DNA from: Oscillospiraceae bacterium
Lineage (GTDB): Bacteria; Bacillota; Clostridia; Oscillospirales; Oscillospiraceae
Assembly: GCA_902778285.1 (NCBI GenBank)
Contig: CACYXC010000008.1
Coordinates: 1-59,027, forward strand
Reading direction: 5' to 3'
Length of the DNA: 59,027 nt
The notes under the pieces were generated by a model. It was not told the origin of the DNA and made no database searches. It saw only the letters and a program-made list of their open reading frames with translations. The translations under genes were made by a program, and so were the position numbers. Each line of letters opens with the position of its first letter. Within the stretch, counting starts at the first letter, position 1. This document shows, one piece after another, positions 9,114 through 58,304 of this stretch.

Positions 9114-9141
9114 GCGCGCAAAAAACACGGCAGAGACAAGA

Positions 9142-9168
9142 GCCTGCGCGGGCGCGTCCCACGCCGGC
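9142..9168 (+). terminator. Left bracketing hairpin of structured repeat A
   Basis: An imperfect stem around CGCGT (arms GCGCGGG and CCCACGC plus flanking pairs), 28 bp after the Cthe_2159 gene. It has nearly the same arms, with the loop inverted, as the hairpin at 9339-9363 on the other side of the repeat. Confidence 0.6.
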
Positions 9169-9338
9169 TTTCCAGCTGTCGACAAAGTGTCGACAGCTGG
9201 AAAGGCGAAAACAGGAACCTTCGAAAAGGTTCCTGTTTTCGCCGAAATTGAACTGCGAGAGGGAATAACCAATCCCCTCTCGCGCTCTCCCCATGCGCGT
9301 CCAGCTTCTGTCGCAAGGCTTTGTATACAATCAGAAAT
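9168..9338 (+). repeat. Structured intergenic repeat, copy A
   Basis: One of four copies of a family of about 165 bp. H1 (9168-9204) has perfect 17-bp arms around AAG and contains GTCGACA and TGTCGAC. H2 (9204-9242) has perfect 15-bp arms. H3 (9255-9283) has GCGAGAGGG and CCCTCTCGC. A tail starting CCCCATGCG can form a small H4. The last bases (TTTGTATAC) are a degenerate inverted copy of the left end. Same orientation as the upstream gene. Spurious ORFs cross it on both strands. Confidence 0.85.
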
Positions 9339-9363
9339 CCGGCGTGGGCGTGTCCCGCGCCGG
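9339..9363 (+). terminator. Right bracketing hairpin/terminator of repeat A
   Basis: A 10-bp GC stem (CCGGCGTGGG with CCCGCGCCGG, one wobble) around CGTGT, followed by CTCTTTTT. It would work as an intrinsic terminator for the CotH cluster. Confidence 0.75.
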
Positions 9364-9581
9364 CTCTTTTTCGCCTCGCCGCAGACTGTCAAAAAAAAGA
9401 CAGCGCTTTCCCGCGGGGAATGCGATTCTCCCCCTTGAATTTTAAGGTTAAATTTAGTATCATTATTGTTGCGTATGTTTTCAAATCTGCGGCAAAACGA
9501 TCGCGGAACCCAATATATTGCAGGAAAAATGTTGCGATCCGCCTTTGGACCGCAACAGCTTGAGTTTTTGGAGGTATCACC

Positions 9582-12797: not shown

Positions 12798-12905
12798 CCA
12801 AAATCAAAGCAGCCGCTTTGATTTTGAGAGGACGAGCAGCGGAGTGAGTGAGCTATCGAGCCTGCGAGGAAGCGAGTCGATACGGAGCTTGTGAGGACGA
12901 CGCGC
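12798..12905 (-). repeat. CTCGTCCTCTC-family repeat (copy 2)
   Basis: Reverse orientation relative to copy 1, which it matches across about 100 bp. The terminal hairpin here is AAAATCAAAG with CTTTGATTTT, so both arms changed together relative to copy 1. Confidence 0.75.
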
Positions 12906-17779: not shown

Positions 17780-17801
17780 TCTCCGCCCCCATATGCCCCA
17801 A

Positions 17802-17827
17802 CGCCCCGCTGCAAAGCGGGGCGTTTT
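17802..17827 (+). terminator. tctA terminator and left bracket of repeat B
   Basis: An 8-bp GC stem (CGCCCCGC with GCGGGGCG) around TGCAAA, followed by TTTT. The same stem recurs at 17995, 18189 and 18378. Confidence 0.88.
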
Positions 17828-17994
17828 CCAAGCCGTCGACAAAGTGTCGACAGCTTGAAAAGCGAAAATGGGAGCGTCTGGAAAAGCGCCCATTTTCGCA
17901 TGGATTGAACGTGAAGAGGGGCATACCCTCCCCTCTTCACAATCACCCCATGCGTCTCCAACCTTGTCCGCACAGGTTTGCCGACAGTCAGAAA
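17824..17994 (+). repeat. Structured intergenic repeat, copy B
   Basis: Same layout as copy A: H1 17824-17861 (GTCGACA/TGTCGAC core), H2 17862-17899 with arms GCGAAAATGGG and CCCATTTTCGC, H3 17911-17940 with GTGAAGAGGGG and CCCCTCTTCAC, and a tail with the small hairpin AACCTTGT/ACAGGTT. H2 and H3 arms differ from copy A, yet pairing is kept. Confidence 0.88.
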
Positions 17995-18017
17995 CGCCCC
18001 GCGGTATCCGCGGGGCG
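17995..18017 (+). terminator. Second copy of the tctA terminator stem
   Basis: CGCCCCGC with GCGGGGCG around GGTATCC, followed by TTTTCC. It lies exactly between structured repeats B and C. Confidence 0.85.
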
Positions 18018-18188
18018 TTTTCCAAGCCGTCGACAAAGTGTCGACAGCTTGAAAATCAAAAAATGAGAACTCCCCAAAAAGTTCTCATTTTTGAGTATAT
18101 CAATCGCGAGAGGGAATAACCAATCCCCTCTCGCGCTCTCCCCATGCGTCTCCAACCTTGTCCGCACAGGTTTGCCGACAGTCAGAAA
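18018..18188 (+). repeat. Structured intergenic repeat, copy C
   Basis: In tandem with copy B. H1 and the tail are nearly identical to B. H2 (about 18058-18094) carries different arms (ATGAGAACT and AGTTCTCAT). H3 (18106-18134) is the same as in copy A rather than copy B. Confidence 0.88.
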
Positions 18189-18211
18189 CGCCCCGCAGTA
18201 TCCGCGGGGCG
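18189..18211 (+). terminator. Third copy of the tctA terminator stem
   Basis: CGCCCCGC with GCGGGGCG around AGTATCC, followed by TTTCC, immediately after repeat C. Confidence 0.8.
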
Positions 18212-18239
18212 TTTCCGTTTGTCGGCAAAGCGCGCTTCT

Positions 18240-18337
18240 GTCATCCTGAGCGGAGCGAAGCGGAGTCGAAGGATCTCAAAAACTTCGTCACCTGAGCAGT
18301 TAATGAGATCCTTCGTCACTTCGTTCCTCAGGATGAC
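18240..18337. repeat. GTCATCCTGAG inverted-end repeat (copy 1)
   Basis: Begins GTCATCCTGAG and ends CTCAGGATGAC, with AAGGATCT and AGATCCTT inside. A second, shorter copy is at 54565-54640. This type of element is widespread in Firmicutes intergenic DNA; no function is established that I can cite. Confidence 0.8.
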
Positions 18338-18377
18338 AGCGCTGTTGTTGATTGAGCAGACTTTGTCGACAGCTTGC

Positions 18378-18403
18378 CGCCCCGCCGCAAAGCGGGGCGT
18401 TTT
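18378..18403 (+). terminator. Fourth copy of the tctA terminator stem
   Basis: CGCCCCGC with GCGGGGCG around CGCAAA, followed by TTTTCC. Its loop matches the first copy (17802) rather than the second and third, so these two bracket the whole repeat cluster. Confidence 0.82.
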
Positions 18404-18433
18404 CCTTTGCGCGTGCATGGACCACGCTTTTTG

Positions 18434-41197: not shown

Positions 41198-41599
41198 AAT
41201 CGATACGCTCCTTCTTTCAGAGTTCTGCTCCATTATATTTGCAAAGATATGCCAAGTAAATTGCAGTTTATGCTTGAAAACTTGCAAAAAGTGCTATAAT
41301 ATTATATTCATCTCGGGCTTCCCCCTCGGGGGAAGCTGTCCGCGAAGCGGACTGATGAGGGGCGTCCGTCCCTCTGAGCCGTGATGGCGGAGCGCTGTTC
41401 GGGATCAGCTTAGCCCTCCGACCAGGCTTCCCCCTCGGGGGAAGCTGTCCGCGAAGCGGACTGATGAGGGGCGTCCGTCCCTCTGAGCCGTGATGGCGGG
41501 GCGCTGTTCGAGATGAGCTTAGCCCTCCGACCGCGCTGTGCCCGGCCGCCTCCCCTTGCGGGGGAGGAAATTGTGCAGAGTTGAAGAAAGGCGGCGCCC
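41198..41599. other. 400-bp gene-free divergent stretch
   Basis: AT-rich divergent promoter region (41230-41300, TATAAT on both strands) followed by two tandem 109-bp repeats and a CCTCCCC/GGGGAGG hairpin (about 41549-41568) before the AraC-family gene. Confidence 0.7.
41316..41533 (+). repeat. Two tandem 109-bp repeats
   Basis: Units 41316-41424 and 41425-41533 differ at only a few positions. Each holds CTTCCCCCTCGGGGGAAG, then CTGTCCGCGAAGCGGACTGA and TGATGAGGGGCG. The first two motifs form hairpins. Confidence 0.9.
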
Positions 41600-44609: not shown

Positions 44610-44634
44610 TCGTTTGCAGATAACGTGGGTTTCT

Positions 44635-44759
44635 TGTCATTCCGAACCAGTGACCGATGTCACTGGTGTGGGAATCCGCATCTTAAAATCCCCGGTACGA
44701 GGGCATTTTGGGGAAAACGGATTGCCACGCCAGTGTTGTGACACTGGCTCGCAATGACA
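44635..44759. repeat. TGTCATT...AATGACA dispersed repeat
   Basis: 125 bp with inverted ends TGTCATT and AATGACA. Two internal hairpins, CCAGTGAC/GTCACTGG and GCCAGTGT/ACACTGGC, resemble each other, and CGGATTGCCACGCCAGTG mirrors the left half. I recognise this type from clostridial genomes, but only one copy is in the window. Confidence 0.75.
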
Positions 44760-44784
44760 TGTTCTGGGCTTTGTCTGCACATTG

Positions 44785-44808
44785 ATGCGCGCCCTTTCGG
44801 GCGCGCAT
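44785..44808. terminator. Right bracketing hairpin of the TGTCATT repeat
   Basis: ATGCGCGCCC and GGGCGCGCAT around TTTC. It lies 35 bases downstream of the P-loop pseudogene and may end its transcript. Confidence 0.65.
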
Positions 44809-55576: not shown

Positions 55577-55752
55577 GTTTTTGCCGCAGCTTTGCCGAGG
55601 CAAAAACACCCTGAGGCGGTCGCAAAGCGCCGCCCTCGCGCCGTCGTCAAACGAAACTCACTCCATTTCGCTTCCGCAAGATAGCGAAAGCTCCATATAT
55701 GTTCCTTCCGTTTTCCTCTCAAATGCAAAGCAGATGCTTTGCATTTGAGAGG
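55577..55752 (+). repeat. GGCAAAAACACC repeat with perfect hairpin
   Basis: The left part matches 48987-49045. The right end is a perfect hairpin with 15-nt arms (CTCTCAAATGCAAAG and its complement) around CAGAT, comparable to the terminal hairpins of the CTCGTCCTCTC repeats. Confidence 0.75.
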
Positions 55753-55849
55753 AAGAAAGAGGGAGCGGAACGTAGTTTTCGTCACGCTTGACGGAAACGG
55801 AGTACAGCGAGCTTCTTCTGACGCTGCGATGGAGCGCGAGCGCTTCAAA

Positions 55850-55875
55850 GGGAAGCCCCTCTATGGGGCTTCCCT
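55850..55875 (-). terminator. Bracketing hairpin of repeat D, distal copy
   Basis: GGGAAGCCCC with GGGGCTTCCC. The whole 26 bp is identical to 56039-56064. Confidence 0.85.
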
Positions 55876-56038
55876 CAGACTGTAGACAAACCCTACAGCG
55901 GCCAGGCCGGACCAGGAAGGGGGATTGTGAAGGGGGACGGGGAGTCCCCCTTCACGTTCAATTCATGCGAAAACGGGAACTTTCAAAATAGTTCCCGTTT
56001 TCGTCTTTCAAGCTGTCGACACTTTGTCGACAGCTTGA
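55876..56038 (-). repeat. Structured intergenic repeat, copy D
   Basis: Reads on the minus strand, like uraA. H1 has the GTCGACA/TGTCGAC core, H2 has arms CGAAAACGGGAACT and AGTTCCCGTTTTCG, and H3 (55927-55955) has GTGAAGGGGG with CCCCCTTCAC. The tail ends GTTTGTCTACAGTCTG, an imperfect inverted copy of the start. H2 and H3 arms differ from copies A-C but pair fully. Confidence 0.88.
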
Positions 56039-56064
56039 GGGAAGCCCCTCTATGGGGCTTCCCT
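56039..56064 (-). terminator. uraA terminator, proximal bracket of repeat D
   Basis: GGGAAGCCCC with GGGGCTTCCC, 11 bases after the uraA stop. Identical over 26 bp to the hairpin on the far side of repeat D. Confidence 0.85.
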
Positions 56065-56074
56065 TTGAGATGGA

Positions 56075-57478
56075 TCAGAACTTGCCGAGCGAGCCGGAAT
56101 TTTCCTGGTTTGGCATGTACTCTTCGCGCTTTCCGGGGAGGATGGCGTTGAGGAGGATGCCGACGATGGAGGCCACGGCCAGACCGGAGAGGGCGATCTT
56201 CATGTCGCCGATCATGAAGGAGATGGCACCGGTGGCGTTGTTGCCGGCGGTGGTGATGTCCGCGCCGAGGGCGCCGGAGAAGTTGATGCCCAGCGCGAGG
56301 CCGAGGATGACGGCCGCGACGATGACGTTTCTGGACTTCTGGAAGTCGGTGTGGTTCTCGACCATGTTGCGCACGCCGACCGCGGAGATCATGCCGTAGA
56401 GGATGATGGACACGCCGCCGATCGTGGCCGCGGGCATGGCGGAGATCAGGGCCGCGAACTTCGGGCAGAAGGAGAGGATGATCGCAAAGTACGCCGCGAT
56501 GCGGACGACCTTCGGGTCATAGACCTTGGTCAGCACGAGCACGCCGGTGTTCTCGCCGTAGGTGGTGTTGGCCGGGGCGCCGAAGAGCGCGGCGATCGTG
56601 GTGCCGACACCGTCGCCGATCAGGGTGCGGTGCAGACCCGGGTCCTCGATCAGGTTCTTCTCGATGGTGCCGCCGATGGCGGAGATGTCGCCCACGTGCT
56701 CCATCATCGTCGCGAAGGCGATCGGGACGATCATGATGATCGAGGAGACGAGCAGGCCGCTGTTGACATTGCCGGAGGCGAAGAGACCGAAAACGGTGTC
56801 CTGCATCTGGAAGGGAAGGCCGAGCCAGGCGGCTTCCTTCACGCCGCTGAAGTCGACGTTGCCAGTCAGCGCGGCGACAAGATAGGAGGCGAGGACGCCC
56901 ATCAGGATCGGGACGATCTTGATCATGCCCTTGCCCCAGATGTTGCAGACGATCACAACGACGATCGCGACGAGGGCGATGAGCCAGTTGGTGGAGCAGT
57001 TGTTGATGGCGGAGGGGGCGAGGATCAGGCCGATGGCGATGATGATCGGGCCGGTGACGACGGGCGGGAAGAAGCGCATGACGTTTTTGGAGCCGAAGGC
57101 CTTGCAGATCAGCGAGAGCACAAGGTACAGCAGACCCGCGCAGGCGACGCCCACGCAGGCGTAGGGCAGGGCCTCGCGCTGGGAGAGACCGATCTCGGCG
57201 CCGGAGGCGACGACCGCGAAGTAGCCGCCGAGGAAGGCGAAGGAGGAGCCGAGGAAGACGGGGACCTTCTTGCCGGTCACAAGATGCATGAACAGCGTGG
57301 CGAGGCCCGCAAACAGGAGCGTCGCCGAAACGCTCAGCCCGGTCAGGATCGGGACGAGGACCGTCGCGCCGAACATCGCGAACAGGTGCTGCAGGCCCAG
57401 CACCAGCATTTTCGGCGTGCCGAGCTCGCGCGCGTCGTAGATCGGCGCGTCAAGCTGAGCCTTTTTTTCTTTTCCCAT
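56075..57478 (-). CDS. uraA: Uracil permease (NCS2 family)
   Basis: A 467-residue uracil:H+ symporter. The UraA signature regions are visible as MMEHVGDISAIGGTIEKN, GVGTTIAALFGAPANTTYGE and NTGVLVLTKVYDP; fourteen membrane helices fit the 7+7 fold. It lies 41 bp downstream of pyrR in one operon controlled by the PyrR attenuator, so uptake would fall when UMP is plentiful. It is followed by a terminator and structured repeat D. Confidence 0.95.
   Translation of the reverse strand: MGKEKKAQLDAPIYDARELGTPKMLVLGLQHLFAMFGATVLVPILTGLSVSATLLFAGLATLFMHLVTGKKVPVFLGSSFAFLGGYFAVVASGAEIGLSQREALPYACVGVACAGLLYLVLSLICKAFGSKNVMRFFPPVVTGPIIIAIGLILAPSAINNCSTNWLIALVAIVVVIVCNIWGKGMIKIVPILMGVLASYLVAALTGNVDFSGVKEAAWLGLPFQMQDTVFGLFASGNVNSGLLVSSIIMIVPIAFATMMEHVGDISAIGGTIEKNLIEDPGLHRTLIGDGVGTTIAALFGAPANTTYGENTGVLVLTKVYDPKVVRIAAYFAIILSFCPKFAALISAMPAATIGGVSIILYGMISAVGVRNMVENHTDFQKSRNVIVAAVILGLALGINFSGALGADITTAGNNATGAISFMIGDMKIALSGLAVASIVGILLNAILPGKREEYMPNQENSGSLGKF

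Positions 57479-57519: not shown

Positions 57520-58304
<785 letters not shown>

Follow-up and report, generated by a model that had tools for sequence, protein, structure and literature searches.

Whole terminator hairpins are duplicated around short mobile elements of an Oscillospiraceae bacterium, with a likely link to IS1182-family transposases

Hairpins flanking repeats in the window

The window (the whole stretch analysed, 59,027 nucleotides from an Oscillospiraceae bacterium) carries four places where a repeat of 162-175 bp is flanked by two hairpins that are like each other and unlike the hairpins at the other places. This layout had been put forward in a preliminary description of the sequence, and re-measurement bears it out with coordinates that differ by a few bases. 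The repeats are MITEs, non-autonomous elements that mostly measure 107-168 bp and have ends CAAGCTGTCGACAAAG and, read inward, CAGACTGTAGACAAAC.

9139..9171, no strand: left hairpin copy of element A, a target duplication matching the right copy at 26/33 positions
9172..9334, + strand: MITE copy A, 163 bp, ends CCAGCTGTCGACAAAG and TTTGTATACAATCAG
9335..9367, no strand: right hairpin copy of element A
17798..17828, no strand: hairpin H1, GCAAA loop, directly 3′ of the TctA gene
17829..17991, + strand: MITE E1, 163 bp
17992..18022, no strand: hairpin H2, GTATCC loop
18023..18185, + strand: MITE E2, 163 bp, flanks agreeing at 29/31 positions
18186..18216, no strand: hairpin H3, GTATCC loop, final 2 bases overlapping the assigned start of E3
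18215..18376, no strand: element E3 with TGTCATCCTGAG interior, ends CCGTTTGTCGGCAAAG and, read inward, CAAGCTGTCGACAAAG
18377..18405, no strand: hairpin H4, GCAAA loop
44586..44609, no strand: left hairpin of the TGTCATT element, matching the right copy at 21/24 positions
44610..44784, no strand: TGTCATT element, 175 bp, ends TCGTTTGCAGATAACG and, read inward, CAATGTGCAGACAAAG
44785..44808, no strand: right hairpin of the TGTCATT element
55849..55875, no strand: hairpin copy flanking element D, 27 bp, matching the other copy at 27/27 positions
55876..56037, - strand: MITE copy D, 162 bp, ends CAAGCTGTCGACAAAG and, read inward, CAGACTGTAGACAAAC
56038..56064, no strand: second hairpin copy of element D, where the Xan_ur_permease gene ends
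56075-57478, - strand: Xan_ur_permease gene, adjoining the element D hairpin copy

The pair around copy D, earlier given as an identical hairpin of 26 bp, is indeed identical throughout; its length is now 27 bp and its coordinates are those listed. Around copy A the two hairpins are identical at 26/33 positions in direct and likewise at 26/33 in inverted orientation, so the description of one loop as inverted is neither confirmed nor excluded. The hairpins of the TGTCATT element differ at three positions, all between the 8-bp arms. This element had been called unrelated to the others, a label that falls because its terminal repeats resemble those of the MITEs.

In the tct cluster four hairpins alternate with three elements. 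Its loops are as first described, with GCAAA common to H1 and H4 and GTATCC common to H2 and H3. The two hairpins of the middle element agree at 29/31 positions, and those of the outer elements at 17/31 and 10/29 in ungapped comparison, low values that arise because the loops differ in sequence and length; the stems CGCCCCGC/GCGGGGCG agree across the outer pairs. With flanks agreeing at 29/31, E2 is probably the youngest of the three. The simplest order that we infer has the two outer elements arriving first and the middle one last, into a middle hairpin whose loop had already changed, which would come close to the nested insertion proposed earlier.

Three other hairpin pairs in the window (31992/32403, 37157/37746 and 41317/41426) enclose no element bounded by terminal inverted repeats and were judged to reflect chance or tandem repetition. 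Positions 41316-41533 hold a 109-bp tandem duplication, 96% identical, that includes the hairpin GCTTCCCCCTCGGGGGAAGC. The window also contains inverted, partly matching intergenic repeats of the CGTCAAACGAAACTC type at 818-1030, 12805-12901, 55577-55764 and 58053-58148, one of which adjoins element D.

A survey of MITE copies across the genome

The genome that contains the window is represented by a fragmented, 89%-complete assembly of 2.43 Mb in 76 contigs. The palindromic left end of the MITE occurs there at least 152 times with up to two mismatches, versus 16 occurrences of a reversed control, and the right end TTTGTCTACAGTCTG at least 129 times with up to one mismatch, versus none for its control. 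An exact 15-base right end is found in 45 of 102 genomes of the genus, by far the most (101) in the genome studied here. Several contigs of this genome, G000 (L030, L038, L039, L042, L071, L081, L088 and L095), start or stop within a MITE. The repeats thus break the assembly, and may hide an autonomous copy.

Flanks were analysed in the window plus 115 stretches of the same genome, whose choice drew on the end-motif matches listed and on 40 scored of 232 candidates; some of the 129 right ends lie outside this sample. It contains 113 right ends, 18 of them with no left end in reach, hence 95 complete copies. For the preliminary description, flanks that match no better than random terminators genome-wide would have counted against its reading. 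What we found is that 80 of the 95 complete copies have matching direct-repeat flanks, compared with 2 of 4,707 random pairings. A less strict test, in which the left end may be shortened, finds the flank again upstream for 89/104 right ends versus 26/2,062 controls, and finds no matching upstream flank for 15/104 right ends in the window and the 115 stretches.

The duplications were characterized in 82 copies, namely the 80 matching ones together with L033 and L107, which fall below the score cut through loop mismatches. Their length ranges from 20 to 44 bp with a mean of 29.4, and every one contains a hairpin with a stem score of at least 6. The duplication is exact, loop included, in 60/82 copies. 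In 70/82 the dyad coincides exactly with the centre of the duplication, and in the other 12 it is displaced by 0.5 to 6 positions. When these 12 displaced copies are left out, a T-run (at least 4 of 8) follows the right hairpin copy in 48/70 cases versus 9/69 control stretches, and an A-run precedes the left copy in 46/70 versus 12/69. The duplicated hairpins that flank the MITEs thus bear the marks of intrinsic terminators, with a T-run on the 3′ side and an A-run on the 5′ side.

One copy departs from this setting. In L100 (positions 941-1062) a MITE is located within an open frame resembling an ABC transporter permease, a family assigned by eye from the translation. The duplication is 6 bp, AGTTCT, and forms the centre of the 12-bp palindrome GGAAGTTCTTCC. 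A copy within a coding frame suggests that the rule concerns palindromes rather than terminators as such. The target looks to be a palindrome that is usually, though not always, a terminator, and the rule looks structural.

Terminators without an element in related genomes

We looked for six predicted empty sites in 41 genomes of the genus, that of the window included. In the relatives' segments a hairpin call required a stem score of 9 or more within 250-275 bases. The search yielded 43 segments beside orthologous genes at five sites, site E having none; they represent 42 places, since L184 repeats L156, and L157 serves two sites. Untabulated segments are L148, L169, L174, L181, L182, L192 and L193, all of which except L169 repeat tabulated places.

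The proposal had been that empty sites carry one hairpin rather than two, and 38 of the 43 segments carry a single hairpin. Three have none by the stem cut-off and two (L155 and L191) have two unlike hairpins; two matching hairpins were found in 0/43 of these orthologous terminator segments. At site A, relative G033 has a single hairpin, ACAGCCCCGCTCATAGGAGCGGGGCTGT, with the sequence on both sides recognisable, where the genome studied here has ACAGCCCCGCTCTTTCGAGCAGGGCTGT on each side of the MITE. In most other relatives only one flanking gene is matched and the hairpin sequence differs, so most empty sites reveal the number of hairpins and not the exact precursor. Two segments from G022 (L150 and L190) contain element remnants beside a single hairpin.

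These counts bear on the idea that tandem terminators came first and that the element merely lies between them. Paired hairpins do occur in the two segments just named, as do three in L169, outside the 43 segments, but in each case the hairpins are unlike one another. Given that matching pairs are absent from all 43 segments and that 60/82 MITE duplications are exact down to the loop, we regard a tandem origin as hardly credible.

A candidate autonomous partner in the genus

No IS1182 transposase was found in the fragmented, 89%-complete assembly by a PF13751 search at E 0.001 or a transposase search at E 1e-30. Relatives of the L055 transposase (E 1e-30) are present in 9 of 102 genomes of the genus. 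Among the IS of this genus, L195 (1,637 bp, from G065) and L196 (1,635 bp, from G106) have the left end CAGCCTGTAGACAAAGT or CAGACTGCAGACAAAGT and the right end CAGACCGTAGACAAACCC. Those of the MITE, CAAGCTGTCGACAAAGT and CAGACTGTAGACAAACC, are near to these, and the left-right asymmetry is kept. By eye, the terminal repeats of the window elements also resemble the IS ends, most closely in copy D and more weakly in E3 and the TGTCATT element.

Against NF033551 (transpos_IS1182; cut-off 270) the transposase of L195 reaches 444.9 bits, and it contains the domains PF05598, PF13751 and PF01609. Its gene is enclosed by terminal inverted repeats that agree at 13/16 positions. IS1634-family elements make long duplications; L195 falls short of that family, scoring 28.6 bits against NF033559, whose cut-off is 100. 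REP/BIME elements, which were also considered, are palindromes that bear tags and owe their spread to a tyrosine transposase associated with REP.

Exact hairpin duplications, of 41 bp and 32 bp, flank L200 and L203 (the latter the same place as L052), two IS of the genus that are more distantly related. In L195 and L196, whose ends are nearest those of the MITE, both ends carry a hairpin, yet the two hairpins differ. Such unlike flanks are seen in 5 of 7 complete IS of the genus (L195, L196, L197, L198 and L199; hairpins judged by eye, the right end of L199 being weak). When 20 transposase loci were scripted for ends, one clean duplication emerged, L052, and a second script again returned L052; in the latter, L063 is an IS with unlike hairpins and the remaining transposase loci have no credible ends.

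Judging from the similarity of ends, the autonomous partner of the MITEs is likely an IS1182-family IS of the same genus, and a transposase of the L195 type would then mobilise them. The rule of target duplication is common to MITEs and IS, as seen in L200, L203 and 49/69 IS loci of a wider sample (best 80 of at least 443; see below).

The ends of L195 and L196 and the left end of the MITE could themselves fold. The MITE left end CAAGCTGTCGACAAAGTGTCGACAGCTTG is a palindrome, and the left end of L195 contains ACAAAGTACCCATAG plus, further in, its complement. Donor ends and targets may thus both be hairpins.

Further stacks and element types are apparent in the genome. L044 (1177-1725) resembles the tct cluster, with four hairpins of the AGCCGGGACG type and three elements between them, one of which has a CAGTGACC interior like that of the TGTCATT repeat. 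At the right flank of L121 a hairpin beside the MITE end is followed at once by a terminal repeat, CAGTTTGTCAAAAAG, like that of a second IS1182 type, so distinct IS groups seem to stack at one terminator. In L138 (794-1012), two similar hairpins enclose an element of the TGTCATCC type whose terminal repeat is CAGACTGCAGACAAACGCC. Judging from L138, the TGTCAT repeats look like IS1182-type MITEs as well.

The same target rule in other genera

Species genomes were scanned with a four-protein alignment, and the best 80 of at least 443 IS loci were taken as a sample. These come from records such as Butyrivibrio, Anaerostipes, Cytobacillus, Lysinibacillus and Sporosarcina; one of them, L238, belongs to the genus of the MITE host and contains the L196 copy. 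To place the IS ends, the motif CAGnnTGT[AC]GACAAA was matched with at most two mismatches, and the pair of matches giving the best duplication was taken. Both ends were located at 69 of the 80 loci (best 80 of at least 443).

Within this sample of the best 80 of at least 443, a duplication of 19-35 bp is present at 49/69 loci, and in 49/49 it is a hairpin centred on its dyad with an offset of 0. Because this way of picking ends favours the best duplication, a control with swapped flanks was run: among the 61 loci with usable flanks, none of 3,660 pairings scores as high.

The other 20 of the 69 loci, again from the best 80 of at least 443, comprise 8 with too short a flank, 9 with hairpin feet at both junctions but of different hairpins, and 3 that are unclear. 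Duplication is absent at 12 of the 61 loci with usable flanks (same best 80 of at least 443). When sorted by record titles these fall into 3 of 41 loci in isolates versus 9 of 20 in metagenome or uncultured assemblies (p = 0.001; best 80 of at least 443), an excess that makes assembly mixing through repeats likely. Recombination between IS copies would look the same. A second mode of transposition, considered as a source of unlike end hairpins, was set aside given the excess in metagenome assemblies.

The combined MITE and IS data bear on two other ways in which paired hairpins might arise. In one, the transposase would read its target as linear sequence (an A-tract, a GC arm and a T-tract) with a variable stagger, and hairpin structure would be irrelevant. 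MITE duplications do start with A in 75/82 cases and end with T in 77/82. Against this stand the exact centring in 70/82 MITEs and 49/49 IS duplications (best 80 of at least 443 loci) over lengths of 19-44 bp, arm sequences that are unrelated between sites, and the numbers of A/T pairs within the duplication (0 to 4) and of paired positions that extend past it (0 to 11). The 6-bp duplication at a 12-bp palindrome in the coding frame of L100 also speaks against a linear target, and we consider such a target very unlikely.

In the other, insertion without a stagger would occur at one hairpin foot and the second hairpin would be made later, through recombination or template switching between palindromes. 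Consistent with this, loops differ between the two hairpin copies more often than stems do, at 10/293 positions as against 14/1,744 (p = 0.001), so some exchange or selection acts on stems. However, loops too agree in 60/82 pairs, the same exact centring recurs at 49 IS loci (best 80 of at least 443), and many intermediates with a single hairpin would be expected. A two-step origin therefore seems to us very unlikely, even more so than a linear target.

A model for integration at hairpin feet

We think it very probable that the repeats are MITEs of IS1182-family IS, and that the transposase picks palindromes by shape, joins the element to their 5′ feet and leaves gaps whose filling duplicates the hairpin. 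The target would be a short palindrome able to form a hairpin on each strand, in most cases an intrinsic terminator. In a cruciform the 5′ feet of the two hairpins face each other across the junction, and the two 3′ ends of the element would be joined to these two feet, symmetrically about the dyad. The gaps would then be the hairpin strands themselves, and filling them would give a complete hairpin on either side.

Transposons usually make a short target duplication of fixed length. With joining at hairpin feet, duplication length (6 to 44 bp seen) would be set by the size of the hairpin and not by a fixed stagger. Joining at both feet would thereby account for duplications that are exactly symmetric, vary in length and follow no sequence consensus.

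The chemistry at the feet, and a cruciform in place of a single-stranded hairpin, are what we infer from the products. Possibly the transposase instead uses a single-stranded hairpin, for instance on the lagging strand, with the second strand handled later. Hairpins form readily on single strands and the same sequence outcome would be expected, yet symmetric positions on both strands most simply mean that both hairpins were present at once. Moreover, DDE-type transposases, to which PF01609 and PF13751 point, normally join both ends to a double-stranded target. We give the single-stranded route a real but distinctly smaller chance than the cruciform.

The preliminary description held that elements enter at terminators and duplicate the whole hairpin. 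Duplication of the hairpin accords with the flanks of 80/95 complete MITE copies, with 0/43 matching pairs at empty sites and with 49/49 IS duplications (best 80 of at least 443 loci); restriction to terminators does not, as L100 has a palindrome that is not one. The layout also makes it plausible that, as suggested then, an insertion leaves the gene still terminated. At a bidirectional terminator, transcription of each gene would first have to cross the element and would then meet one hairpin with that gene's own T-run.

More broadly, we lean towards the view that a widespread branch of the IS1182 family reads DNA shape alone and integrates at the feet of cruciforms or hairpin pairs, and that rebuilt terminators make the insertions nearly harmless. 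If so, duplication length is a read-out of hairpin size, and near-harmless insertion lets MITEs exceed a hundred copies and pile up at a single terminator in stacks of several. Hairpin-sized, exactly symmetric duplications over a wide range of lengths in several genera are strong comparative evidence for structure-guided DDE integration. They offer a simple genomic signature for mapping palindromes that formed hairpins in living cells, suggest a route to high element abundance with little gene damage, and provide a testable model of how bacterial terminators are duplicated and 3′ UTRs change.

Comparison with known systems

Exact, dyad-centred duplication of a hairpin as an observed outcome, or a MITE family of this kind, was not encountered in the portions covered of the literature on IS1182 elements and prokaryotic MITEs, with ISfinder and the main IS reviews outside that scope. 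ISfinder reportedly lists direct repeats of 0-60 bp for the IS1182 family, so its curators may know of hairpin duplication.

The NF033551 match and Pfam domains of L195 fit the IS1182 family generally, some members of which target palindromic sequences (Siguier and co-workers 2015, as cited in the sections considered of PMC4923244 and PMC5678879). ISCaa15 from Amoebophilus is likewise an IS1182-family element but, unlike those described here, has a 4-bp direct repeat in two copies, according to the part of its report considered (PMC3196728). As short, non-coding, intergenic and clustered elements with terminal inverted repeats, the present repeats resemble prokaryotic MITEs as reviewed in PMC10969869. 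In the covered portion of that review we encountered no MITE that duplicates a whole terminator hairpin, and its main text does not use the term IS1182.

The closest parallels are IS1272 and TnSha1, IS1182-family elements of staphylococci. As set out in the sections considered of PMC4923244 and PMC5678879, both target hairpins, terminators included, without a sequence consensus. The earlier statement that no described mobile element has such a target rule was consequently too strong, although in those two cases the hairpin is deleted. The elements share a transposase family with ours, a preference for stem-loops that are often terminators, and repeated insertion in one terminator (PMC4923244, PMC5678879, same sections). 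They differ in that IS1272 and TnSha1 lose the stem-loop, which is deleted or replaced in a blunt reaction with no target duplication (in the same portions of both papers), whereas the present elements duplicate it whole. Target replacement in the mode of IS1272 is not the pattern here, where duplication is found in 80/95 MITEs and 49/69 IS loci (best 80 of at least 443).

In the part considered of the 2017 model for IS1272, attack is proposed at the 3′ feet, hence the loss of the hairpin, and duplication of the whole stem-loop is drawn solely as a possible branch (Fig 13, pathway b; PMC5678879). The present data are what pathway b, as drawn there, predicts. As far as the sources considered extend, hairpin targeting is already published, and the new elements are the outcome, duplication and not deletion, together with the exact rule and the scale of the MITE family.
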